A stretch of 10,891 nucleotides of DNA from Oscillospiraceae bacterium (GTDB lineage Bacteria; Bacillota; Clostridia; Oscillospirales; Oscillospiraceae), in assembly GCA_017378975.1 (NCBI GenBank), contig JAFNXT010000183.1, forward strand, positions 1 to 10,891, written 5' to 3'. The position numbers and the translations under genes were made by a program. This document shows, one piece after another, positions 1 through 10,891 of the stretch. Each line of letters begins with the position of its first letter. Position 1 is the stretch's first letter. The notes under the pieces are model-generated. The model searched no databases. It worked only from the letters and a program-made list of their open reading frames with translations, and was not told where the DNA came from.

Positions 1-405
1 GATCACATCCTGGATGAGGATATGCTCCTCAAAAAAGGCCTCCATCCCCGCCTGATCCAGCGTGGTCACATACATCCAGTCTCCAAGACTCAGGTCTCCC
101 AGACCAAACTGCCCCATAAGACTGAAGAACCACAGGACCGTGACCACCAGCAACACGATGGACACGACCTCCACGATGATGCTCAGGGTCAGCAGGACCT
201 TCCGCTTGGACTTGTTCTGTCCCTTGGCCACATACCGGTACTGATCGGAAATACAACCAAGGACCCAGACGTTCACCAGCGGGATCCAGGCCAGCCACGG
301 ATTCCGGATCCCCCGCCGCTTGGCCACGGAATACAGGCCCACCGCCATCAGCACATAGGTGACCAAACTAATGACGATGGAACCAAGATTCAACAGGATC
401 TGCAT
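1..405 (-). CDS. Small multi-pass membrane protein, 3' end outside the window
   Basis: The reading frame is open from an ATG at 405 to the window edge, giving the first 135 residues. The start is supported by GGGAGGAG six bases upstream. I see hydrophobic stretches at about residues 4-25, 38-53 and 72-97. Between them lie a basic motif (AKRRGIRNPWLAW, residues 28-40) and a lysine-rich loop (KGQNKSKRK, 61-69). The AKRRGIRNPWLAWIP region resembles uncharacterised membrane proteins I associate with Oscillospiraceae. No catalytic motif is visible and I assign no function. The gene has its own promoter just downstream of the htpG stop, so it need not be co-transcribed with htpG. An 89-residue open frame inside it (29-298, minus) is a shadow. 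The gene itself is reliable; its role and full length are unknown. Confidence 0.8.
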   Translation of the reverse strand, partial: MQILLNLGSIVISLVTYVLMAVGLYSVAKRRGIRNPWLAWIPLVNVWVLGCISDQYRYVAKGQNKSKRKVLLTLSIIVEVVSIVLLVVTVLWFFSLMGQFGLGDLSLGDWMYVTTLDQAGMEAFFEEHILIQDVI

Positions 406-443
406 ACAGATCTCCTCCCATCTTTTCTCTTTTCTATAGAGAT

Positions 444-472
444 ACTATACCACACATACGACCCTGATGCAA
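444..472 (-). promoter_or_regulatory. Extended -10 promoter for the small membrane protein gene
   Basis: On the minus strand the -10 is TATAGT (449-444), preceded by TGG, which makes an extended TGn -10. A weak -35, TTGCAT (472-467), lies 17 bases upstream. It fits in the 79-bp gap between the htpG stop and the ATG at 405, about 40 bases ahead of that ATG. Confidence 0.55.
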
Positions 473-484
473 TCAAATTTTCGC

Positions 485-2362
485 TCAAATCACCAGCCGG
501 CACACCAGTTCGGTATAAGCCACAGGGTCCTCGATGGGAAGCTCCGCCATGAGCTGGGCCTGATAGCACAGAAGCTGTGCCAGATCCTTCGCCCGCACGG
601 GGTCGGAGGTCATGGTGGAGAGCACCGCCTTCACGGTCTCATGCTCCGGGTTCAGCTCCAGGATCCGGCCCACGGGATAGGCGAAGTTCGGATCCATCCG
701 CTTCATATACTTCTCCATCTCGAAGCTCATACCGGCCTCCGGCACCATGGCCACAGGATGCTCCCCCAGACTGGAGGACAGCCGTACCTCCTTGACCTGC
801 TGATCCAGGCTCTGCTGCAGGAAGGTCAGGAAGCCCTTGAGCTCCTCAGTCTTCTCCTCCAGCGCCTTCTTCTCATCCTCGGTCTGCAGGCCCAGATCCT
901 CGGTGGCGGCGTTACAGAAGGACTTCTCCTCATATCCCATCAGGGTATTGGGGATGAACTCGTCCACATCCTCGGTGCAGATCAGCACATCATAGCCCTT
1001 GGCGGCGAGGGTCTGGACCTGCGGCAGCTTGCCCAGCCGGTCCCGGCTCTGACCCACCACATAGTAGATCTTCTCCTGCCCCTCAGACATGGCTTCCACA
1101 TACTCACGCAGAGCGATCAGCTTCCCCTGCTTGTGGGACCAGAACATCAGCAGATCCTTGGTAGAATCCTTATGGGCGCCGTAGTCCGCCACGGTACCGT
1201 ACTTCAACTGACGGCCGAAAGCGGCGTAGAACTTCTCGTATTTCTCCCGGTCGCTGTCCATCATGCTCTTCAGCTCGGACCGGATCTTCTTCTCGATGTT
1301 CCGGGCGATCACCATGAGCTGACGGTCATGCTGGAGCATCTCACGGCTGATGTTCAGGGAAAGATCCTGACTGTCCACCACGCCACGGACGAAACGGAAA
1401 TGCTCCGGAAGCAGATCCTCACAGGCCTCCATGATCATGACACCGGCGCTGTAAAGCTGCAGACCCCTCTTGAAGTCCTTGGAGTAGAAGTCCATGGGCG
1501 CCCGTCCGGGGATATACAGCAGAGCCTTGTAGCTCACCGTACCCTCGGCGCTGGTGTGGATGCAGTGCAGTGGCTTCTCATAGTCGAAGAACTTCTCACG
1601 GTAGAAACCCTCGTACTCTTCCTCCGTTACATCCTTCCTGGCCCTCTGCCACAGAGGCACCATGGAGTTCAGGGTATCTTCCTCCATATAGGACTCGTAC
1701 CCATCCTCGTCCTCCTTCTTCCGGGACTTGGACACCTCCATGCGGATGGGATAACGGATATAGTCGGAATACTTGCGGACCAGCTCCCGGACCTTGTACT
1801 CCTCCAGGAACTCGGAGTAGTTCTCCTCCTCCGTGTCCTCCTTCAGGGTCATGATGATCTGGGTGCCGGGGGCATCCTTCTGAGCCGGACTGATCGTATA
1901 GCCGTCCGCACCGTCGGACTCCCACTGCCATGCCTGATCCTCGCCGTACTTTCTGGAGATCACCGTCACCTTGGATGCTACCATGAAGGCAGAGTAGAAG
2001 CCCACACCGAACTGACCGATGATGTCGATGTCCTCGCTCTTCTCCATGGCCTGCTTGAAGCTCAGAGAGCCGGACTTGGCGATGGTGCCCAGATTCTCTT
2101 CCATCTCCGCCCGGCTCATGCCGATGCCGTCATCGGACACGGTGATGGTACGGGCAGCTTCATCCCGCACGATGGTGATCGCCATCTCCTGCCGGGAGAT
2201 GCCCACCTGATCGTCCGTCAGGGCCAGATAAGCCAGCTTGTCCATGGCGTCACTGGCGTTGGAGATGATCTCCCGGAGGAAGATCTCCCGATGGGTATAG
2301 ATCGAATTGATCATCAGATCCAGCAACCGCTGGGACTCTGCCTTGAACTGCATCTTTTCCAT
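485..2362 (-). CDS. htpG: HtpG, Hsp90-family molecular chaperone
   Basis: This is a cytoplasmic ATP-dependent homodimeric chaperone of the Hsp90 family. At 625 residues it is full length (E. coli HtpG is about 624). The N-terminal GHKL ATPase motifs are intact: EIISNASDA with the catalytic Glu31 and Asn35, SDDGIGMS at 76-83, and GQFGVGFYSAF at 116-126. The middle domain carries the expected SLNISRE-type segment that contacts the ATP gamma-phosphate. The ATG at 2362 is chosen because an in-frame TGA lies two codons upstream. The nearest Shine-Dalgarno (AGAAGGA) is about 13 bases away, rather far, so the Met at position 4 is a possible alternative. The gene stands alone behind a promoter with a CIRCE operator, which points to control by HrcA. 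Confidence 0.97.
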   Translation of the reverse strand: MEKMQFKAESQRLLDLMINSIYTHREIFLREIISNASDAMDKLAYLALTDDQVGISRQEMAITIVRDEAARTITVSDDGIGMSRAEMEENLGTIAKSGSLSFKQAMEKSEDIDIIGQFGVGFYSAFMVASKVTVISRKYGEDQAWQWESDGADGYTISPAQKDAPGTQIIMTLKEDTEEENYSEFLEEYKVRELVRKYSDYIRYPIRMEVSKSRKKEDEDGYESYMEEDTLNSMVPLWQRARKDVTEEEYEGFYREKFFDYEKPLHCIHTSAEGTVSYKALLYIPGRAPMDFYSKDFKRGLQLYSAGVMIMEACEDLLPEHFRFVRGVVDSQDLSLNISREMLQHDRQLMVIARNIEKKIRSELKSMMDSDREKYEKFYAAFGRQLKYGTVADYGAHKDSTKDLLMFWSHKQGKLIALREYVEAMSEGQEKIYYVVGQSRDRLGKLPQVQTLAAKGYDVLICTEDVDEFIPNTLMGYEEKSFCNAATEDLGLQTEDEKKALEEKTEELKGFLTFLQQSLDQQVKEVRLSSSLGEHPVAMVPEAGMSFEMEKYMKRMDPNFAYPVGRILELNPEHETVKAVLSTMTSDPVRAKDLAQLLCYQAQLMAELPIEDPVAYTELVCRLVI

Positions 2363-2387
2363 AATTCAAAACACATCCTTCTAAATC

Positions 2388-2414
2388 TTAGCACTCTTTT
2401 GAGTTGAGTGCTAA
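2388..2414 (-). promoter_or_regulatory. CIRCE operator (HrcA binding site) upstream of htpG
   Basis: TTAGCACTC and GAGTGCTAA flank a 9-base spacer, a perfect match in both arms to the CIRCE consensus bound by the heat-shock repressor HrcA. It starts one base after the -10 hexamer and ends 26 bases before the htpG ATG, so it covers the transcription start. HrcA would block initiation and release it on heat shock. The well-known CIRCE targets are groESL and the hrcA-grpE-dnaK operon; htpG is a less usual one. Confidence 0.95.
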
Positions 2415-2415
2415 T

Positions 2416-2443
2416 ATTATACCGCATCCTTCCAAAAAAGCAA
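2416..2443 (-). promoter_or_regulatory. htpG promoter
   Basis: The minus strand has a perfect -10 TATAAT at 2421-2416, immediately before the CIRCE. A weak -35 TTGCTT (2443-2438) lies 16 bases upstream. The overlap of start site and operator is the normal arrangement for HrcA-repressed genes. Confidence 0.75.
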
Positions 2444-2486
2444 GCCCTAAACGTGAAAATTCAAACTCAGTTCACATCAAAAGCGA

Positions 2487-2568
2487 ATGTCATCGCGAGG
2501 ATCGAAGGGATGTGGCGATCCCCAGTCTTATGGAGATCGCCACGTCCCTTCGGTTCTGACGATGACAT
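2487..2568. repeat. 82-nt near-perfect palindrome between the MBOAT gene and htpG
   Basis: The arms 2487-2524 and 2531-2568 pair over 38 positions with three mismatches and a six-base loop (GTCTTA). The outer module reads ATGTCATCG and the inner one GTGGCGATC. It begins five bases after the MBOAT stop codon, so it could end or stabilise the operon mRNA. It is far longer than a standard intrinsic terminator and is followed on the minus strand only by a weak CTTTTG. The inner module recurs at 9583-9623 and the outer one at 10187-10245, which suggests a dispersed REP- or MITE-like repeat family rather than a plain terminator. Confidence 0.85.
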
Positions 2569-2573
2569 ATTAC

Positions 2574-4175
2574 TTAAAACTGATTATAAATGAACTGTCC
2601 CGCATCGAAGCCGATGCCGTAAGCGCCGAATATCAGGATGACCGTCACCAGCACCGCAATCGCAGAATAGAACAGCGTGCTGTGGGCATACAGCCCGTCC
2701 CGGACGGAGCCGTGCTTGCGCTTGTACAGGCTCACCGCCAGCACCGCCAGCAGGCATACCGCCAGCAGGATATAGTCCGCCACACTGAGCCCGATCTGGA
2801 GCAAAGAACCGTCTCCGAAGATCCTCAGATCGAAGGAAGTGAACATGGACCCCACCTTGCGGAAGGTCAGCGGCACATCCCGGTAGCAGTCGAACATCCG
2901 GATCATGCTCATGAGCAGGAAGGTCCGGATCACTTGGAACAGCTCATAAGGGAGCTTCCCTTTCACCTTGAACCGGCCATGGAACTTCTCATACAGGGGC
3001 TCCAGCTCCTGAGACACCATGATCACGACCCAGTTGGCAAGGCCCCAGACGATGAAATTCCATGCGGCACCATGCCAGATGCCGGTGGTGAGCCACACGG
3101 CGAAACTGCTGAGGTACACCGTCACCCGCTTGCCCACGGCCTTGCCCAAATGATCTCTGGACCACTTGGACAGCTTCAGCATGGGCTTACAGACGGAGAT
3201 GGGATAGAAGATGTAATCCGTGAACCAGGTGCCCATGGTGATGTGCCACCGGTTCCAGTATTCCTTGATGTTCCTGGAGAAGAAGGGCAGATCGAAGTTC
3301 TCCGCCAGCCGGATCCCCATAGTCTCAGCGATACCGATGGTGATATCGATGCCGCCGGTGAAATCGCAGTAAAGCTGGAAGGCATAGAACACCATGGCAA
3401 CGAACACATATGCGCCGTCATAGCTCATGGTGACACCGCCCACAGTCTGTCCCCCGATCAGGGTCAGCACACCGCTGAGGAGACGGTCCGCGATCACGAC
3501 CTTCTTGAAGTAGCCCCAAACGATCCGCATCAGGCCGTAGGATACCGTCTTACGCTGGAAGCTGTGGGGCTCATACAGACTTTTGCTCAGATCGCCGTAA
3601 CGGCTGATGGGACCTTGCACCATCTGGGGGAAGAAGGTGACGAAAAGGGTCAGCTTCAGAAGATCCTTCTGGACCTCCTGCTTGCCCCGATACACGTCGA
3701 TCACATAGCCCACGGTCTGGAAGGTGTAATAGGAGATGCCCATGGGCACGATCATATCCACCATGGAAAGCTGAGAAGCATCCGAGAGGAAGACGTTGAT
3801 GTTGCCGATCACGAAGTTCGTATACTTGGTCACCGCCAGGATGCCCAGATCCAGACCAAGGAACAGAAGGAGCAGATGCCACTTTTTCGCCTTGACCTTG
3901 GCCTTATACGCCTTCTTCTCGTCCTTCGACAGATCCGCCTTATGAGCGGCGAGATAACTTTTTTGATCCTGCTCGATCTTCTGGAGCCACAGCGTAGCGC
4001 CATAGGCGGACAAGGTGGTGACGCCAACGAAGATCAGATACCGGGGATCGGCACACCAGTAGAAATACAGGCTCGCCACCAGCAACAGTCCCCACTGCCA
4101 CTTCTTCGGCACCAGATAGTACCCAAGGACCACCACCGCCATGAAGACGATGAAGTCAAATGATGTGAACAGCAT
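2574..4175 (-). CDS. MBOAT-family O-acyltransferase (AlgI/DltB-like)
   Basis: This is a polytopic membrane-bound O-acyltransferase that should move an acyl or aminoacyl group from a cytoplasmic carrier to an acceptor outside the membrane. The N-terminus (MLFTSFDF then a hydrophobic segment) is typical of AlgI/PatA-type proteins. Family signatures are FPQMVQGPISRY at 182-193, WNRWH with His311, and GIWHGAAWNF with the presumed catalytic His368. A lysine-rich cytoplasmic insert lies at about 65-99. At 533 residues it is longer than DltB (about 400) and closer to AlgI. It is the last gene of the operon, three bases after the carrier protein stop. Its Shine-Dalgarno is poor, so translation is probably coupled. 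The aminoacyl substrate is inferred from the neighbouring ligase and carrier. The usual SGNH-type partner (DltD, AlgJ or PatB) is absent from the window. Confidence 0.93.
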   Translation of the reverse strand: MLFTSFDFIVFMAVVVLGYYLVPKKWQWGLLLVASLYFYWCADPRYLIFVGVTTLSAYGATLWLQKIEQDQKSYLAAHKADLSKDEKKAYKAKVKAKKWHLLLLFLGLDLGILAVTKYTNFVIGNINVFLSDASQLSMVDMIVPMGISYYTFQTVGYVIDVYRGKQEVQKDLLKLTLFVTFFPQMVQGPISRYGDLSKSLYEPHSFQRKTVSYGLMRIVWGYFKKVVIADRLLSGVLTLIGGQTVGGVTMSYDGAYVFVAMVFYAFQLYCDFTGGIDITIGIAETMGIRLAENFDLPFFSRNIKEYWNRWHITMGTWFTDYIFYPISVCKPMLKLSKWSRDHLGKAVGKRVTVYLSSFAVWLTTGIWHGAAWNFIVWGLANWVVIMVSQELEPLYEKFHGRFKVKGKLPYELFQVIRTFLLMSMIRMFDCYRDVPLTFRKVGSMFTSFDLRIFGDGSLLQIGLSVADYILLAVCLLAVLAVSLYKRKHGSVRDGLYAHSTLFYSAIAVLVTVILIFGAYGIGFDAGQFIYNQF

Positions 4176-4178
4176 CCC

Positions 4179-4406
4179 TTATTCTTCTTCCAGACGGGTC
4201 ACCAAAGCATAGAGCGCCTTGGCGGAGTTGAAATTGTCAGGGATGATCTCCTCGGCAGGGATCACCACATCGAAGGTCTCGTTGATCTCAGAGATGATGG
4301 TGATGATGTCGAAGGAATCCAGGATCTTATCATCCACCAGCGTGTCGCAGGTGTCGAAGTCCACCTCAGGGTGCAGGTCTTCCAGGATCTCGATCAGTTC
4401 TTCCAT
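4179..4406 (-). CDS. Acyl carrier protein (DltC-like)
   Basis: This 75-residue acidic protein has the four-helix carrier fold pattern. The phosphopantetheine attachment motif is LDSFD with Ser31, similar to the LDSF of DltC. It would carry an aminoacyl group as a thioester between the adenylating ligase and the MBOAT protein, at the inner face of the membrane. The ATG at 4406 has AAAGGAG nine bases upstream, and the gene is three bases from both the ligase stop and the MBOAT start, so the three are tightly coupled. A carrier for fatty-acid synthesis is unlikely in this setting. The nature of the carried group follows from the ligase and is not readable from this protein. Confidence 0.93.
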   Translation of the reverse strand: MEELIEILEDLHPEVDFDTCDTLVDDKILDSFDIITIISEINETFDVVIPAEEIIPDNFNSAKALYALVTRLEEE

Positions 4407-4409
4407 GTT

Positions 4410-5936
4410 TTATTTCTCCTTTTTTTCACTTTCGTACATATTTTTCAGGGCCACACGGTCCAGCTTGCCATTGGCCGTCAGGGGCATGGTCTCCAGCCGG
4501 ATCACCTTATTGGGGATCATATACCGGGGCAGCTTCTCCCGAAGCACCGTCACCAACGTCTTCATCTCCATATCGCCCACATAATACAGGACGATCTTGT
4601 CCGTCTCCTTGTGGTAGATACAGCAACTGGTCTGGATGCCGTCGAGCATGTTCACATTGACCTCGATCTCGCCCAGCTCGATCCGGTGGCCCATGTGCTT
4701 GATCTGATAGTCCTTTCGGGATACGAACACCAGCTCGCCCCGCTCGTTCCACTTGCCCAGATCTCCGGTGCGGTAGATCAGCTCCGGATACCGGTCGTTG
4801 AGGGGGTTCTGGACGAAGACCTCGTTGGTCTTCTCGAAATTGTGATAGTAGCCCAAAGTCAGACAGGTGCCACGGATGCAGATCTCACCCACGGCCCCAT
4901 CCTCCGCCAGCTTGTTCTCACCGTCCAGCAGGAGGATCTGGGTATTGCGGAAGGGACGGCCCACAGGGATCGCCTCGTCCAGCTCAAAGTCCCGGTCCAC
5001 GTGGTAGAAACAGCTCATGCCGGTGCACTCCGTAGGACCGTAAAGGTTGGTGAACCTGGCCTCCGGCAGAGCCTGCCGCCACAGACGGAACTGCTTGATC
5101 GGGAACACCTCAGAGCCAAAGGCGATGGTGTCCAGATACTGGGGCTTCACCTTCTCGAAGGTCTTGAAGGAGGAGATCATGGTCAGCGCGGACACCACCC
5201 AGCACACGGTGTTGACCTTGTGCTCGTTCAGATACTCCACCAGCTTGATCGGGAACATGAACAGGCTGTGGGGCACGATGTAGGTAGTAGCACCGAACTT
5301 GATCGTGGGATACAGCTCCTTCAGACAGGCATCGAAGTACAGCGGCGCCTGATTGGCGAAGACCGTATGCTCCCCGAAGCCCAAGGTCTCGGACAGGTTC
5401 TCGATATAGTCGATCACAGACCGGTGACAGGCCACCACGCCCTTGGGCACACCGGTGGAACCGGAGGTGAAGACGATGTAGATGGGGTCCGTGTCCAGCT
5501 GACGCGCCCGGATGAAAGCGAGCATCGCTTCCTCGATGGGCTCCTGTGCCACCTGATCGTAGATAAGGATCTGACCGTCGAAATCGAAGGTCTTGGCCAT
5601 CTCCACGGTATCGTCATCGCAGATCATCACCCGGGGCTTCAGGTTCTGGAAGATCAGCTCGATCCGGAACCGGGGCATCTCCTCATCGATCGGCACATAG
5701 TAACAGCCGCCGTACACACAGCCGAAGAAGGCCGGCACACACTTGGGGTGCTTACGCATGAACACCACCACAGGTTCGTTGTAATAGCCGTCCTTAGCCA
5801 GTCGGGAACCAACGGCACGGCTCTGATCAAAAACTTCCGCAAAGGTCAGCCCCTCGGTACCATCCGAGAAAGCCAGCTTCTGCGGCACTCTGGGGGCGGT
5901 CCGTTCCAGATATTCCAGCACGTTCATTTGTTGCAT
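4410..5936 (-). CDS. Amino acid-activating ligase of the DltA/NRPS adenylation family
   Basis: This stand-alone ANL-superfamily enzyme (508 residues, the DltA size) should adenylate an amino acid and load it on the adjacent carrier protein. The core motifs are intact: FTSGSTGVPKGV (156-167), YFDACLKELYP (200-210) with Asp202 for the alpha-amino group, YGPTE (299-303), YRTGDLGKW (388-396), QIKHMGHRIELGEIE (411-425) and ANGKLDR (488-494) with catalytic Lys491. I chose the ATG at 5936 because GGAGGAG sits seven bases upstream; the longer frame from 5978 lacks such a site and overlaps the racemase. By hand alignment the D-Ala-selecting Cys of DltA (in FCGEV) is Gly274 here (FGSEV), and Lys206 is in the pocket. 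This suggests a substrate other than D-Ala, possibly acidic. There are no condensation or carrier domains, so it is not an NRPS module. Confidence 0.92.
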   Translation of the reverse strand: MQQMNVLEYLERTAPRVPQKLAFSDGTEGLTFAEVFDQSRAVGSRLAKDGYYNEPVVVFMRKHPKCVPAFFGCVYGGCYYVPIDEEMPRFRIELIFQNLKPRVMICDDDTVEMAKTFDFDGQILIYDQVAQEPIEEAMLAFIRARQLDTDPIYIVFTSGSTGVPKGVVACHRSVIDYIENLSETLGFGEHTVFANQAPLYFDACLKELYPTIKFGATTYIVPHSLFMFPIKLVEYLNEHKVNTVCWVVSALTMISSFKTFEKVKPQYLDTIAFGSEVFPIKQFRLWRQALPEARFTNLYGPTECTGMSCFYHVDRDFELDEAIPVGRPFRNTQILLLDGENKLAEDGAVGEICIRGTCLTLGYYHNFEKTNEVFVQNPLNDRYPELIYRTGDLGKWNERGELVFVSRKDYQIKHMGHRIELGEIEVNVNMLDGIQTSCCIYHKETDKIVLYYVGDMEMKTLVTVLREKLPRYMIPNKVIRLETMPLTANGKLDRVALKNMYESEKKEK

Positions 5937-5940
5937 GATG

Positions 5941-6672
5941 TCACTCCTCCTCCGAGAACGGGACGAACAATACTTCATACTCCGGCTTCACCGGCTTACC
6001 GCAGGCGATCACCGAGGTCTTTGCCAATACATCCAGCACATCCAGGATCCCGTCTCCCAGATCCACCTGCTTTTTCAAGAGAGAAAGCTCCGTACAGCCC
6101 AGGATCACCACCTGTGCCCCTTCACCCCGGAGCCGGTCCCGGATCTGACCGAACAGCGCCATATCCGCCGGCAGACCGGCCTTCACCTGATCGTAGATCA
6201 GGGTCATGACACCCTTCTGATCCTCCTCACCGGGCAATATCACCGAGAGCCCTTCCCTCTCCAGTTCCTTTTGGAAGATGCCGCTTTGGACCGTACCGTC
6301 GGTAGCCATGAGCCCCACCCGGCAGATCCCTGCCTGACGCAGGAGGCCTGCCGTCTCCCGGATCACATGGATCACCGGCAGACCGATCCCCTTCTGGAGC
6401 TCTTCGTGGAAATAGTGAGCGGTGACGCAAGGCGTGGCCAGGATCGTGGCCCCCATCTGCTTCATCTGCTCCCCTGCCCGGATCATGGGCACCACGGGAT
6501 CTTCCTCGCTGTTCCCCAAGATATAGGCAGTACGGTCCGGGATCGTAGGGATGTCCATGAGCACGATCTCAGGATGATCCTGATCTCGCCGCGCATCGGT
6601 CATGGCGACCACCAGCTCCAGATAATATACCGTCGCCATGGGTCCCAGACCGCCGATCACACCCAAACGCAT
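5941..6672 (-). CDS. Aspartate/glutamate racemase family protein
   Basis: This is a cytoplasmic PLP-independent amino-acid racemase of 243 residues, the usual family size. The N-terminal IGGLGPMAT (6-14) is the family signature. Both catalytic cysteines are present: Cys82 in ATPCVTAHYF and Cys193 in LGCTELSLL. These are nearly the positions of the proton-transfer pair in archaeal aspartate racemase (Cys82 and Cys194, as I recall). It may interconvert L- and D-Asp or Glu; the substrate cannot be read directly, and hydantoin racemases are distant relatives. The stop lies four bases before the ligase ATG and contains that gene's Shine-Dalgarno region, so the two are probably translationally coupled. 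This suggests the racemase supplies the D-amino acid that the ligase activates. The start has AAGGTG eight bases upstream, and the gene follows the transglutaminase gene by 21 bases. Confidence 0.92.
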   Translation of the reverse strand: MRLGVIGGLGPMATVYYLELVVAMTDARRDQDHPEIVLMDIPTIPDRTAYILGNSEEDPVVPMIRAGEQMKQMGATILATPCVTAHYFHEELQKGIGLPVIHVIRETAGLLRQAGICRVGLMATDGTVQSGIFQKELEREGLSVILPGEEDQKGVMTLIYDQVKAGLPADMALFGQIRDRLRGEGAQVVILGCTELSLLKKQVDLGDGILDVLDVLAKTSVIACGKPVKPEYEVLFVPFSEEE

Positions 6673-6693
6673 CCCGTCACCTTCTCTTTCGCT

Positions 6694-8067
6694 TTAGTTT
6701 TCTACGATCTGTCCCTTCGCGTAATCCACCATGTCCTGCACGGACTCCGTGGCACGGTCGGGATACAAACTGCCATCAAAAATATGGCTGTTCTTGTTCT
6801 TCACGGAGTAAGCCTCCAGCTCCGCGTCGGTGTTCATGAAGAACTTGCCCGGATTGGACCGGGGGGTGCAGTCCACATGATACCAGCCACCACCGATGTC
6901 GATCAGGCTCCAATAGTGGTGGGAACGGGAGGTGTCGCTCTTGACGACATCCACATTAGGGATCCCAGCCACATCGAAAAGGGCTTTTGCCGCGGCGAAG
7001 TAGTTGTAGCAGTCACCGGACATCTCCGTGAAGGCCTGATAGGCCGCACCGGTCCAGCTGGACTTGTCGGAGCTACCCACATAGCCGATGTTCCGGCTGG
7101 TCCAGCGATAGATGGCGAAGGCCACCTCCATCTTGGACATCCCCTCAGTGGTGATCTCGTCCAGCACCTCCTGTGCCAGACCGTAGACCACATCAGGCTC
7201 CACATAGCCCTCGGGCTTGTCCACCAGCGTGAACTGCACCGTCACGGAAGCCTCGTTCCCGGCGGCATCCTTTGCGGTATAGATCACGGGATAGGTCCCG
7301 GCCTTCTCCGTATCCACCGCGTCACGGTCCACAGAAAGGGTGGCTTCGCTCTTGTCGTCCACCGCCAGGACCTCAGGATACTCGTTGCCGTTCTGGTCTT
7401 TATAAGCGCCGGTATAGACGATGGGATCGCCCACATAGAAAGTCCGGTCCGTGGCTCCCTGGACCTCCGGCGGTACCGTATCATCGATGATGGTCAGCGT
7501 CACAGCGATGACGGAGCTGTTGCCTGCCTCATCGGTGAGCTTGACCTGCGCCACGACCTTGCCGCCCTTGGACACATCCGGTGCCACCTGATAGGAAGCG
7601 GACACCAGACCCACATCACGGACATTGGTCACAAGAAATTCAGGCGCGGGCATCAGACCGGCATTGATGGTCATCTCCACAGGATCTGCCGTGGGAGGCA
7701 CCGTATCCCGTACCCGCATGATGGTGGTATGGGCTTTACCGTTGACGTAGATCTCCACAGTATAGTCGCCTTCCTTGGACATATCGAAAGCGGCCATATT
7801 GGACTTATAATACACCTCGGAGCCGAAGGCCAGACCGGGCTGTGCCAGGAAACGCTCGGGCTCCACCACGGATCCGGCTTCCACCGTCAACGAATCCACC
7901 AGCGGACGGTAACGGGTCAGCGCGATCAGAACGACCACTCCGATCACCAGCACGATACTCAGGATCACGCTGATGGTGGCGAGCATCGCTCTGCGCTGTT
8001 TCGCCTTCCGGATCCGGGCCATCTCCGCCCGCCGTGCCTTCAGGTCTTCTAATCTTCGCTGTTCCAT
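6694..8067 (-). CDS. Membrane-anchored transglutaminase-like protein with Ig-like repeats
   Basis: This 457-residue surface protein has a basic cytoplasmic tail (1-28), one transmembrane helix (about 29-50) and a long outer part. Two bacterial Ig-like or cadherin-like repeats are visible, one ending near 195 and one at about 197-283 (DDTVPPEV to TYPVIYTAKDAAGN, DUF5011/Big type). The C-terminal transglutaminase core keeps the triad Cys353 (SGDCYNY), His384 (SRSHHYW) and Asp399 (YHVDCTP). Such domains act as cross-linking acyltransferases or peptidases; which applies is unknown. I chose the ATG at 8067 because GGGAGGG lies six bases upstream; the frame extends to 8169 but that part overlaps the promoter. 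It is the first gene of the operon, 21 bases before the racemase. That suggests an envelope role, but its link to the aminoacylation genes is only by co-transcription. Confidence 0.9.
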   Translation of the reverse strand: MEQRRLEDLKARRAEMARIRKAKQRRAMLATISVILSIVLVIGVVVLIALTRYRPLVDSLTVEAGSVVEPERFLAQPGLAFGSEVYYKSNMAAFDMSKEGDYTVEIYVNGKAHTTIMRVRDTVPPTADPVEMTINAGLMPAPEFLVTNVRDVGLVSASYQVAPDVSKGGKVVAQVKLTDEAGNSSVIAVTLTIIDDTVPPEVQGATDRTFYVGDPIVYTGAYKDQNGNEYPEVLAVDDKSEATLSVDRDAVDTEKAGTYPVIYTAKDAAGNEASVTVQFTLVDKPEGYVEPDVVYGLAQEVLDEITTEGMSKMEVAFAIYRWTSRNIGYVGSSDKSSWTGAAYQAFTEMSGDCYNYFAAAKALFDVAGIPNVDVVKSDTSRSHHYWSLIDIGGGWYHVDCTPRSNPGKFFMNTDAELEAYSVKNKNSHIFDGSLYPDRATESVQDMVDYAKGQIVEN

Positions 8068-8083
8068 GGTGGTCCCTCCCTGA

Positions 8084-8115
8084 CCGGCTTCGCCGGAAAA
8101 ATGCCCCAAGGGCAT
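8084..8115 (-). promoter_or_regulatory. Two short hairpins in the operon's 5' leader
   Basis: The leader between the predicted start (near 8130) and the ATG at 8067 contains two perfect palindromes: ATGCCC/GGGCAT around three bases (8101-8115) and CCGGC/GCCGG around three bases (8084-8096). The second ends four bases before the Shine-Dalgarno site. They may stabilise the mRNA or affect ribosome access. I recognise no riboswitch or T-box. Confidence 0.4.
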
Positions 8116-8136
8116 ATAATCACATAGTACATTCGC

Positions 8137-8165
8137 ATTATACCACGCCCCAAAAAGCATGTCAA
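8137..8165 (-). promoter_or_regulatory. Consensus sigma-A promoter of the five-gene operon
   Basis: The minus strand has TTGACA (8165-8160), a 17-base spacer and TATAAT (8142-8137), a perfect match in both hexamers and spacing. It should give strong, constitutive transcription from about 8130 through the transglutaminase, racemase, ligase, carrier and MBOAT genes. I see no clear operator over it. Confidence 0.88.
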
Positions 8166-8232
8166 TCACCCATCCGGGCCGATCCCATCCAAAAAAATAA
8201 CACCATCCCCCCTATTTTTTGCACCCTGCTTA

Positions 8233-8241
8233 TGATATACT
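8233..8241 (+). promoter_or_regulatory. Extended -10 promoter of the NAGPA-domain gene
   Basis: TGATATACT is an extended -10 (TGn plus TATACT) 29 bases before the ATG at 8271. No good -35 is visible at the right distance (TATTTT at 8213-8218), which is common for extended -10 promoters. It diverges from the operon promoter, with the two -35 regions about 50 bases apart. Confidence 0.5.
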
Positions 8242-8270
8242 CCATACATCTTTTGAAAAGGAGCACTGAT

Positions 8271-9197
8271 ATGGAACGAAAGCTTCGCATAGGCGGCTTG
8301 CTCTATGCGCTGGTGCTGACACTCTTCACCGTCTACGTCCTGCTGGACACCTTCGTGATCGCCCGTGTGGAGACGCAGGTCCCTTCCACGCCCCAGATCT
8401 CCACGACACCGACCAACGTCCCCAACGAAGGACCGGTCATCTCCGACGAAGGACCGGATACCCCCAAGATCACCGACCGTACTTACCGTGACCGGAACAT
8501 CTCCATCACCCTGACCGAATACCGGGAACATGATACCGACATCTATGTGGCAGAGATAAAGATCGCTTCCGCAGACTACCTGAAGACCGCCTTCGCCAAA
8601 AACGCCTACGGCAGGAACATCAAAGAGACCACCTCCGACATGGCAGAGAACAACGGCGCGATCCTGGCGATCAATGGCGATTATTACGGATCCCGGCAAA
8701 AGGGCTATGTCCTTCGTAACGGCATACTATACCGCATGGACGGCGACCCCAAGCGACAGGACCTGATGATCGGCAAAGACGGCGATTTCCGGATCTATTC
8801 CGAAGCCAACGTCTCCGCCAATATGCTCAGCAGCTTCGACGCGTGGCAGGTCTTCTCCTTTGGCCCTGCCCTTTTGCAGGAGGGCCAGATCTCGGTAGAT
8901 AAAAACGCAGAGGTGGATCAGGCCACCACTTCCAACCCCCGGACCGCCATCGCTCAGGTGGGCGAGCTCCATTACCTGATGGTGGTGTCCGACGGCCGTA
9001 CGGACCGGAGCGAAGGTCTGTCCCTGTACCAGCTGGCCACGTTCCTGCAAACCCTCGGTGCCAGCACCGCCTACAATCTGGACGGCGGCGGCTCCTCCAC
9101 CATGTGGTTCAACGGCAACGTGATCAACCAGCCCGTGAACCATGGAAGCGAAGTCAGTGAAAGGAAGGTCAGTGACATTGTCTACATCGGCTATTGA
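8271..9197 (+). CDS. Exported phosphodiester glycosidase (NAGPA-domain) family protein
   Basis: This 308-residue protein has a short basic N-terminus and a hydrophobic signal anchor (about 8-30). A Thr/Pro-rich linker (36-70) follows, then a NAGPA domain (DUF2233 type). Domain motifs are AINGDYYG (133-140), NPRTAI (222-227), VVSDGR (238-243) and NLDGGGSSTMW (269-279). Members cleave sugar-1-phosphodiester bonds, as the mammalian uncovering enzyme does, and bacterial relatives are often annotated as exopolysaccharide proteins. It probably acts outside the membrane on a phosphate-linked glycan. The start at 8271 has AAAAGGAG seven bases upstream; the longer open frame from 8034 is spurious. It diverges from the aminoacylation operon and overlaps the next gene by about 20 bases, so those two are likely co-transcribed. 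The native substrate is unknown. Confidence 0.93.
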   Translation: MERKLRIGGLLYALVLTLFTVYVLLDTFVIARVETQVPSTPQISTTPTNVPNEGPVISDEGPDTPKITDRTYRDRNISITLTEYREHDTDIYVAEIKIASADYLKTAFAKNAYGRNIKETTSDMAENNGAILAINGDYYGSRQKGYVLRNGILYRMDGDPKRQDLMIGKDGDFRIYSEANVSANMLSSFDAWQVFSFGPALLQEGQISVDKNAEVDQATTSNPRTAIAQVGELHYLMVVSDGRTDRSEGLSLYQLATFLQTLGASTAYNLDGGGSSTMWFNGNVINQPVNHGSEVSERKVSDIVYIGY

Positions 9198-9570
9198 GAA
9201 AAAAGCGACGCGGCTCGCATTGATCTACCTGCTCATCTCTGTCCTCTGCGCCCTGTTTGGCTGTATCTATGAGCATTTCAGCCACGGTGTCTATTCCTAT
9301 CATATGATCTATGCCTTCGCCTACCCTCTGGTGGGCGGCACCCTCCCTGCCCTGTGGGCGGTGGTCTTCGGATGCAAACGCCCTCCGGCGGCGTTACCAA
9401 GGCTCCTGTACCACTGCGGCATCGCTACCTTCACGGTGGGAAGCATCATCACCGCCGTGCTGGAGATCTACGGGACCTCCAGCCCTCTGACCACCTGCTA
9501 CTGGGCCGTGGCTATGCTCCTGACCCTCAGTTCCGTAGTGCTCCACCTGTCCCCCCGGCGCAGATCATGA
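9178..9570 (+). CDS. Four-helix integral membrane protein of unknown function
   Basis: This is about 130 residues, with hydrophobic stretches at roughly 12-31, 42-65, 77-99 and 107-124 and a basic C-terminus (PRRRS). A motif HGVYSYHMIYAFAYPLVGG lies between helices 1 and 2. I recognise no catalytic residues. The start is uncertain. A TTG at 9178 has AAAGGAAGG nine bases upstream and is my choice. A GTG at 9172 is too close to that site, and the ATG at 9142 (142 residues) has no Shine-Dalgarno. With the TTG start it overlaps the NAGPA gene by 20 bases in another frame, which points to translational coupling and possibly a shared envelope role. Confidence 0.75.
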   Translation: MSTSAIEKKATRLALIYLLISVLCALFGCIYEHFSHGVYSYHMIYAFAYPLVGGTLPALWAVVFGCKRPPAALPRLLYHCGIATFTVGSIITAVLEIYGTSSPLTTCYWAVAMLLTLSSVVLHLSPRRRS

Positions 9571-9582
9571 CCGTGCCAACTA

Positions 9583-9623
9583 AAACGTGGCGATCCCCTC
9601 AGTTCGGGAGGATCGCCACGTTT
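9583..9623 (+). terminator. Hairpin after the membrane protein gene, sharing a repeat module
   Basis: Arms starting AAACGTGGCGATCC (9583) and ending GGATCGCCACGTTT (9623) pair over 18 positions with one mismatch and one G-T, around a five-base loop. The stem sits 13 bases after the stop at 9570 and is followed by TTTCTT in part within the arm, so it can act as an intrinsic terminator. The core CGTGGCGATC is the same as the inner arm of the palindrome at 2487-2568. The remaining 124 bases up to the next gene hold no clear promoter or gene. Confidence 0.7.
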
Positions 9624-9747
9624 CTTCGTGCTTCACCATACGCTTCCGATCCGGCCAGATCCGGATCCCATGATGTGTCGCTTTTTTCATGAGGTCCCCT
9701 TCTTTCGGGCATACTGATACCATCCGAAGGAAAGGGAGCGATGATGA

Positions 9748-10182
9748 ATGATCGAACAAGATACTGTGAAACTGCTCAGGGAATGTGATGCCGGGATCAA
9801 AATGGGCATCTCCTCCATCGATGATGTGCTGGACCGGGTGGAGGACCGGAAGCTCCGGGAGCTTCTGGGCGACTGCAAAGCCCAGCACGAGGAGCTCCAG
9901 ACCCAGATCATCGGCCTGCTGGCCGACTACCACGACCGGGGCAAGGATCCGGCACCGATCGCCAAGGGCATGAGCTGGATGAAGACCAATCTGAAGATGA
10001 CGCTGGAGGGTGGCGATGCCACCATCGCCGATCTCATGACCGACGGCTGTGACATGGGCGTCAAATCCCTCAGCCGTTACCTGAACCAATACGAAGCCGC
10101 CGACGAACGCTCCAAGGACATCGCCAAGAAGCTGATCGCCGCGGAATCCGACCTGTCCATCGCCCTGCGCGACTGGCTGTAA
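9748..10182 (+). CDS. Predicted four-helix bundle protein, ferritin-like/DUF2383-like
   Basis: This is a soluble protein of 144 residues, almost entirely helical by composition. It has no signal peptide or membrane segment. Features include LLRECDAGIKMGISSIDDVL near the N-terminus, CKAQHEELQ, DYHDRGKDPAP in a loop, MSWMKTN, and DLMTDGCDMGVKSLSRYLNQY near the C-terminus. His and Glu residues on several helices (for example HEEL and YHD) recall ferritin-like or hemerythrin-like bundles such as DUF2383. I cannot see a complete metal-binding set, so the family call is tentative. The ATG at 9748 has AAGGGAG nine bases upstream. Two overlapping ATGs just before it are in another frame. It stands alone and converges on glnA. 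Confidence 0.85.
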   Translation: MIEQDTVKLLRECDAGIKMGISSIDDVLDRVEDRKLRELLGDCKAQHEELQTQIIGLLADYHDRGKDPAPIAKGMSWMKTNLKMTLEGGDATIADLMTDGCDMGVKSLSRYLNQYEAADERSKDIAKKLIAAESDLSIALRDWL

Positions 10183-10186
10183 AAAC

Positions 10187-10245
10187 CGCCGTCATCACGG
10201 GGAGCACCAAAGAGCCACACAGCTCCGCTCCCCGCGATGACAGCG
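10187..10245 (-). terminator. Intrinsic terminator of glnA, with repeat-like arms
   Basis: Arms 10187-10205 and 10227-10245 pair at 17 of 19 positions. On the minus strand the stem is followed by GTTTTT (10186-10181), a proper U-tract, so it should end glnA transcription. In the plus direction there is no T-run, though the stem may still protect the 3' end of the four-helix protein mRNA. The arm sequence TGTCATCGCG with GGG after it resembles the outer arm of the palindrome at 2487-2568. Confidence 0.8.
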
Positions 10246-10259
10246 TTCACACTACGGTA

Positions 10260-10891
10260 TCACAGATTATAGTACTTCTCGAACTCCGCGGGATGGGGGA
10301 TCGCGGCCATCTGACGGCACTCAGCCCGCTTGCCGGCGATGAAGTTCTTCAGCAGTTCCTCCGGGAACACGCCACCGGCGGTCAGGTAATCGTGATCGGC
10401 CTCCAGCGCATCCAGCGCCTCCTCCAGAGAGGTGGGCAGATGGCTCAGCTTGGCCTTCTCCTCGTCACTCAGGTGATACAGGTTCACATCGTAGGGGCCC
10501 CAGCCGTTGGCATGAGGATCGATCTTATTCTTCACACCGTCGAGGCCTGCCATCAGGATGGCGGCGTAGCAGAAGTAGGGGTTGCAGGTGGCATCGGGGT
10601 TCCGAAGCTCGAACCGACGCTTGTCCGGGCTCTTGGCATAGGCCGGGATCCGGATGACGGCACTGCGGTTGGAGGTGGCATAGCCCACGGTGACCGGGGC
10701 CTCGAAGCCGGGCACCAGACGCTTGAAGGAGTTGGTGCTGGGGTTGGTCAGAGCGCACAGAGAAGCGATGTGCTTCAGCAGACCGCCCATGAAGTAATGC
10801 GCATCTTTGCTTAGGTGTGAGTATCCGTTATCGTCGGAGAAAACGGGCTGTCCGTCCTTCAGTAAGAGCATGTGAACATGCATTCCGTTAC
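10260..10891 (-). CDS. glnA: Glutamine synthetase type I, C-terminal part
   Basis: This is the C-terminal 209 or so residues of the ATP-dependent enzyme that makes glutamine from glutamate and ammonia; the 5' end lies beyond the window. The frame runs through the right edge, where NGMHVHMLL matches the GS active-site motif with a metal-binding His. Downstream come NSFKRLVPGFEAP, SAVIRIP, RRFELRNPDATCNPY and ILMAGLDGVKNKI, all typical of bacterial GSI. An apparent Met start at 10883 is internal and not a true start. NLYHLSDEE aligns with the segment that carries the adenylylated Tyr in enteric GS, though that control is not expected in Bacillota. Its regulation cannot be judged because the promoter is outside. 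It ends at a terminator hairpin. Confidence 0.97.
   Translation of the reverse strand, partial: NGMHVHMLLLKDGQPVFSDDNGYSHLSKDAHYFMGGLLKHIASLCALTNPSTNSFKRLVPGFEAPVTVGYATSNRSAVIRIPAYAKSPDKRRFELRNPDATCNPYFCYAAILMAGLDGVKNKIDPHANGWGPYDVNLYHLSDEEKAKLSHLPTSLEEALDALEADHDYLTAGGVFPEELLKNFIAGKRAECRQMAAIPHPAEFEKYYNL

Follow-up and report, generated by a model that had tools for sequence, protein, structure and literature searches.

A Dlt-like operon of an Oscillospiraceae bacterium encodes an amino acid ligase with a conserved, lysine-containing pocket distinct from that of DltA

The ligase gene and its pocket code

The locus described here lies on contig JAFNXT010000183.1 of assembly GCA_017378975.1 from an Oscillospiraceae gut bacterium; positions 1 to 10,891 of the contig (hereafter, the window) were analyzed. 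It comprises an operon of five minus-strand genes, which encode a transglutaminase-like protein, a racemase, an AMP-forming amino acid ligase, an acyl carrier protein, and a membrane acyltransferase of the MBOAT family. The analysis was centered on the ligase, whose amino acid pocket was found to be nearly invariant among its relatives and to lack the features of the D-alanine pocket of DltA. The open reading frame (ORF) of the ligase extends over 4410-5978 on the minus strand, and a start at Met15 (ATG, 5934-5936) fits both the homologues of 508 amino acids and the numbering used in a preliminary description of this DNA. The ligase gene and the codons of three pocket residues, in ORF numbering, are as follows.

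4410..5936, minus strand: AMP-forming amino acid ligase (adenylation domain), 508 amino acids from Met15 of the ORF
5331..5333, minus strand: codon of Asp216 (GrsA Asp235, anchor of the amino group), located by GrsA and DltA alignments, codon checked
5319..5321, minus strand: codon of Lys220 (Lys206 when counted from Met15; GrsA position 239), located by alignments, codon checked
4464..4466, minus strand: codon of Lys505 (GrsA Lys517), located by alignment, codon checked

The pocket code was determined by alignment to GrsA, with a check of a 174-residue segment against 1amu, and to DltA rows. At GrsA positions 235, 236, 239, 278, 299, 301, 322, 330, 331, and 517, the ligase reads DAKCAGLGMK, corresponding to D216, A217, K220, C259, A286, G288, L312, G320, M321, and K505. 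The ten residues listed in the preliminary description (D202, A203, K206, C245, A272, G274, L298, G306, M307, and K491) match these exactly once 14 is subtracted from the ORF numbering, and the alignment at positions 278 and 330, which had been flagged as doubtful, holds, the two residues standing opposite Thr240 and Val301 of B. cereus DltA. A structure model of the ligase had a mean predicted local distance difference test score (pLDDT) of 79.6, with a weak segment at residues 211-220 (pLDDT 54). Fold-comparison lists for the ligase contained many adenylation domains with tied Z scores and indicated no single substrate.

Conservation of the pocket

A genome scan produced 391 related stretches, the best 80 of which were retained as loci. 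Conservation was calculated from 80 rows, consisting of the window and 79 loci; locus L059, which has a split ligase frame, was excluded. The code DAKCAGLGMK was exact in 75 rows, and the other five varied at position 299, 301, or 331. Position 239 was Lys in 80/80 rows, and Asp235 and Lys517, which are the marks of alpha-amino acid domains, were likewise present in 80/80. Mean identity at the eight variable code positions was 98.9%, versus 76.9% over all columns, and random sets of eight columns were equally conserved with P = 0.0006, a value that gauges constraint and not independent events because the rows are related. Among 50 additional database proteins, two deviated, one at position 331 and one at 235. 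Since the code positions are so conserved, the pocket is, to judge from the alignments, kept for one substrate across metagenome-assembled genomes and isolates whose records name Lachnospiraceae, Oscillospiraceae, or other Clostridia. The operon also occurs in cultured gut commensals, among them Sporofaciens musculi (L081) and Cuneatibacter sp. (L029). Two further genomes (L164 and L178), neither of which has a racemase beside the ligase, carry Arg at position 239 (code DARCAVLGIK), which suggests that positive charge is the feature retained.

Operon genes and gene order

The remaining features of the operon are given below in their order on the minus strand, the ligase being located between the racemase and the carrier. 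Gaps between the genes range from 3 to 21 bases.

6694..8169, minus strand: transglutaminase-like protein (PF01841, PF16403, PF07523)
5941..6672, minus strand: pyridoxal phosphate (PLP)-independent racemase of the aspartate racemase type (TIGR00035, 1jfl)
4179..4406, minus strand: acyl carrier protein, with Ser31 as the presumed phosphopantetheine site (PF00550)
2574..4175, minus strand: MBOAT membrane acyltransferase, DltB-like (PF03062)
2577..2594, minus strand: FIYNQF, the C-terminal FXYXXF acyl-shuttle motif of the MBOAT protein, as the motif is given in an excerpt of PMC12148441

Downstream of the MBOAT gene, most loci contain a gene for an SGNH protein followed by one for a lipoprotein. 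Genes were counted anywhere on the strand of the ligase within each locus, several loci ending at contig ends. By this count the transglutaminase-like gene was present in 76 of the 80 loci, the racemase in 69, the carrier in 74, the MBOAT gene in 75, the SGNH gene in 66, and the lipoprotein gene in 62. The distribution of the operon is patchy: of 150 genomes of the family to which the window belongs, 7 were positive at E 1e-200, counting the one that the window comes from. The assembly of that genome has a completeness of 75.7%, so absence from it means little. No description of the operon was found among open-licence PMC papers.

The transglutaminase-like protein has a single N-terminal hydrophobic stretch, by which it may be membrane-anchored, and immunoglobulin-like and transglutaminase-like domains. 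Its Cys387, His418, and Asp433, each conserved in at least 95% of 76 rows, likely form a catalytic-type triad. The carrier scored 22.4 bits against PF00550 (cut-off 20.8), and its Ser31 was conserved in at least 95% of 74 rows.

The racemase

The preliminary description had reported an Asp/Glu racemase next to the ligase; this gene is real and can be assigned to the aspartate type. It scored 216.3 bits against TIGR00035 (cut-off 93.1), and its best solved relative was the P. horikoshii aspartate racemase 1jfl (E 7.9e-54), whereas the glutamate racemase 1b73 was matched at only E 6.5e-9, a difference that points to aspartate. Residues C82, C194, R48, and K164 are the same in 1jfl and were kept in 70/70 operon racemases; we take the two cysteines to be the catalytic pair and presume that Arg48 and Lys164 have the roles assigned to them in aspartate racemases. 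In contrast to 1jfl, which has Asn at position 83, 69 of the 70 have a hydrophobic residue there (I 54, V 10, M 5, N 1), and the motif PCNTxH is absent from the window racemase, which reads PCVTAH. Unlinked racemases from genomes without an operon racemase had PCNT in 8/8 cases read (of 12 matches). Because Ile, Val, or Met replaces Asn83 and the unlinked enzymes keep PCNT, the operon racemases look like a distinct subfamily. Cysteate was given little weight as a substrate: the window racemase scored 193.4 against the CuyB racemase model (cut-off 190) and higher against TIGR00035, and three tested unlinked racemases pass CuyB too.

The MBOAT protein, shuttle motif, SGNH protein, and lipoprotein

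His368 of the MBOAT protein is conserved. The sequence FIY(N/T/G)(Q/R)F forms the C-terminal end of 71 of 74 MBOAT rows; the three rows without it (L004, L052, and L055) are short and reach the locus end. The FXYXXF shuttle coexists here with a carrier protein.

In the SGNH-fold proteins, a fold assignment that is predicted (e.g., L067:11371-12438; 57 genes; L144 in the window's genome), GDC replaces GDS in 60 of the 61 read, and because of this motif the protein probably has Cys (Cys59 in L067 numbering) where Ser is expected. The L067 copy had no Pfam or NCBIfam match. An SGNH gene was missing in L006 and L043, which are close relatives of the window with enough downstream sequence. The lipoprotein-like protein that follows the SGNH gene at L067:12533-13027 (165 amino acids) has a conserved E-x-x-S-C-A stretch.

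As an alternative, the operon might serve to make a small aminoacyl metabolite, or to modify a protein, the transferase being the transglutaminase-like protein and no polymer being involved. The presence of the transglutaminase-like gene in 76/80 loci, the conserved Cys-His-Asp set of its product, and the occurrence of ligase relatives next to ketoacyl synthase III (KAS III)-like genes in other genomes would be consistent with this. The alternative was considered very unlikely, however, since the ligase is accompanied by MBOAT and SGNH genes in 75/80 and 66/80 loci, respectively, a pair known to acylate envelope polymers according to an excerpt of PMC12148441.

Substrate of the ligase

The gene set (ligase, carrier, MBOAT, and SGNH) resembles that of Dlt, and DltA and DltB models were among the best matches, as would be expected of a divergent Dlt operon activating D-alanine. 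However, all scores were far under the curated cut-offs: 264.8 bits for the ligase against the DltA model TIGR01734 (cut-off 559.85), 151.1 bits for the MBOAT protein against the DltB model TIGR04091 (cut-off 375), and 27.8 bits for the carrier against the DltC model NF003464 (cut-off 68). Code identity with DltA is confined to positions 235 and 517, with no informative residue in common. At position 301, Cys269 of B. cereus DltA, a residue that takes part in selection of D- over L-substrate according to an excerpt of PMC9338922, is replaced by Gly288, and Met201 of DltA is replaced by Lys, which would crowd and charge the methyl-group pocket. The conclusion that this is not a D-alanine pocket is thus supported by the alignments, and a D-alanine substrate was rejected as scarcely credible on the basis of the model cut-offs and the pocket residues.

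The preliminary description had likened the pocket to that of the surfactin glutamate module, whose code was given there as DAKDLGVVDK; the last two letters (DK) follow that description. Among 19 codes compared, this was the top match to the ligase, with 5/10 positions in common (Asp235, Ala236, Lys239, Gly301, and Lys517). The resemblance therefore stands in part, including the D-A-K start and the Gly at 301, but 4/10 positions are also shared with unrelated codes of the Val and homoserine types. The first eight letters were borne out by an excerpt of PMC10548584, in which DAKDLGVV, a code with Lys239, is assigned to Glu/Asp by prediction; an excerpt of PMC3207962 gave an Asp code alone. According to an excerpt of PMC12283262, Asp235 and Lys517 are retained across alpha-amino acid domains generally. 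Among the codes compared here, Ala236 and Gly301 turned up repeatedly in unrelated ones, which leaves Lys239 as the sole informative code residue. The eight variable code positions of the ligase include no acidic residue, in contrast to those of the Glu code (Asp at 278 and 331) and of homoserine codes (Asp at 330), and an acid is favored for this reason. An acidic amino acid, as had been proposed, is a coherent substrate in view of the invariant Lys239, the lack of an acidic variable position, and the aspartate-type racemase, and is partly supported; the narrower proposal of glutamate did not fare as well. Given the type of the racemase, aspartate is no worse a fit than glutamate.

Activation of glutamate, with D-Glu already supplied by peptidoglycan synthesis, was regarded as doubtful. 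In addition to the top code match, sister ligases carry codes nearer to the Glu code (DAKLFALVDK and DSKDMCIVDK). Because D-Glu requires no additional racemase, such a substrate would also account for a code that persists unchanged where the racemase is lacking. On the other hand, the adjoining racemase is of the aspartate type by the E values given above, and just three of the code matches are informative, two of which are common to Val-type codes.

An uncharged polar relative (homoserine, asparagine, or glutamine), to which Lys239 would hydrogen-bond rather than form an ion pair, was judged unlikely. Homoserine codes (DLKNVGSDVK and DLKNLGTDVK) contain Lys239, Asp and Asn domains have the common code DLTKVGHVGK, and Asn83 of the operon racemase is replaced; homoserine is also the amino acid for which E. 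coli YgeA, a member of this racemase superfamily, is known. An asparagine synthase-like gene was found within or beside the operon in 9/80 loci (11 loci by clustering), and the copy at L117:5981-7819 passes TIGR01536. However, these genes are restricted to a minority of loci, and Asp330 of the homoserine codes could neutralise Lys239, whereas the ligase has Gly330 and no acidic variable position.

Proposed pathway

On balance, this Dlt-like operon probably serves for the export of an acidic aminoacyl group, aspartyl being the likeliest, and its attachment to an acceptor on the cell surface. The ligase would adenylate an acidic amino acid, of which aspartate is the likeliest (D-Asp where the racemase adjoins), and load it onto the carrier encoded in the operon. 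Three pocket residues would make the contacts, namely Lys220 with the carboxylate of the side chain, Asp216 with the amino group, and Lys505 with the activated end. The MBOAT protein would then take over the aminoacyl group from the carrier, on Tyr530 within its C-terminal FIYNQF, and so bring it across the membrane, and an SGNH protein encoded elsewhere in the genome would pass it to the surface acceptor; any part played by the transglutaminase-like protein is likewise presumptive.

Several observations weigh against this pathway. The preference for an acid comes from a single informative code residue, Lys239, which homoserine codes also hold (PMC12283262, in the excerpt cited above). Glu221, which adjoins Lys220 outside the code and is invariant, could pair with that lysine. 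Replacement of the DltA cysteine by Gly288 argues against a D-acid, and the replacement of Asn83 indicates that the substrate of the racemase may not be plain Asp. The SGNH gene of the window's genome lies outside the window, on another contig (G000:C294, L144), together with a lipoprotein gene. Finally, ligases with the same code occur without an adjacent racemase in 11/80 loci (one of which, L059, ends just upstream) and in 4/14 genomes, and in six further genomes of the family the racemase was not beside the ligase in four, beside it in one, and cut at the contig start in one.

With the code unchanged where the racemase is not adjacent, the racemase is less informative about the substrate than the preliminary description held. 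A comparison of loci with and without the racemase revealed no code change apart from the two Arg239 genomes, both of which lack it, and gave no support to a substrate set by the racemase. Ligases of this code without an adjacent racemase would use an L-acid, D-Glu, or a racemase acting in trans; a racemase match of some kind (E 3e-56 to 2e-16) was found in 10 of 11 searched genomes without an operon racemase.

More broadly, it is tentatively suggested that in many gut Clostridia a surface polymer carries D-aspartyl or other acidic aminoacyl groups that are added by an MBOAT-SGNH system of a third type. Such a system would be carrier-fed, as Dlt is, with an acyl-Tyr shuttle fused to the MBOAT protein and a cysteine SGNH transferase. 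D-alanylation is the textbook means of tuning envelope charge in Gram-positive bacteria. If the proposed pathway is correct, each amine would be accompanied by a free carboxylate, a charge logic opposite to that of D-alanylation, and addition of an acidic amino acid would be a form of surface chemistry new to gut bacteria, one that might affect charge, metal binding, and recognition by the host.

Comparison with known systems

The operon resembles the Dlt pathway for D-alanylation of teichoic acids (DltA, DltC, DltB, DltX, and DltD) in its content of ligase, carrier, MBOAT, and SGNH genes. It differs in the sub-threshold scores and the ligase code described above, in the fusion of the shuttle motif to the MBOAT protein (the motif is carried on the DltX peptide in Dlt), in the addition of an aspartate-type racemase and a transglutaminase-like protein, and in the GDC motif of the SGNH protein. 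Unlike in PatA/PatB and other MBOAT-SGNH systems fed by acyl-CoA, the MBOAT gene here is accompanied by genes for a carrier and a ligase. A carrier protein of the Dlt type is absent from all other MBOAT/SGNH pathways according to an excerpt of PMC12148441. The operon shares the C-terminal FXYXXF of the fused-shuttle MBOAT-SGNH class and lacks its carrier-free gene content, and a system with both a carrier protein and a fused FXYXXF falls outside the division made in that excerpt, which places DltX with the carrier-fed pathway and the fused motif with CoA-fed systems.

Relative to the Glu domain of surfactin module 1, a nonribosomal peptide synthetase domain, the ligase differs at 5/10 code positions and is free-standing, with a separate carrier and without a condensation domain. 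Acidic amino acids are also handled by VinN, VinO, and VinL of vicenistatin biosynthesis (an acidic amino acid ligase, decarboxylase, and carrier), and in microcystin biosynthesis the aspartate racemase McyF is paired with a D-methylaspartate domain; both are natural-product pathways, neither of which is known to involve MBOAT export.

More distant sister ligases

Loci of distant free-standing ligases were selected by similarity to the window ligase or to a ligase with a DVK code, and many of them cover only about 1.5 kb on each side. In these sister groups, the code goes with the gene neighbors. Ligases with the code DVK(I/T)..CNK (L121, L124, and related loci) are adjoined by a LysA-like PLP decarboxylase in 12/12 genomes and by a carrier in 11/12, and this group possibly performs carrier-bound decarboxylation. 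Two of the decarboxylases were checked with Pfam, and the one scanned with NCBIfam scored 175.8, under the LysA cut-off of 297.9. Neighbors were N-acetyltransferase-like for DAKLFALVDK ligases (2/2 genomes, one genus), KAS III-like for DNLFLALVDK ligases (3/3), and a carrier and MBOAT for SM(S/L)YLALDIK ligases (3/3, one also with SGNH). Lys239 is thus recurrent in MBOAT-linked ligase groups, yet it is not required for MBOAT linkage.

In the window, a divergent gene (8034-9197) with a phosphodiester glycosidase (NAGPA) domain adjoins the operon and is also present in L004 and L005.
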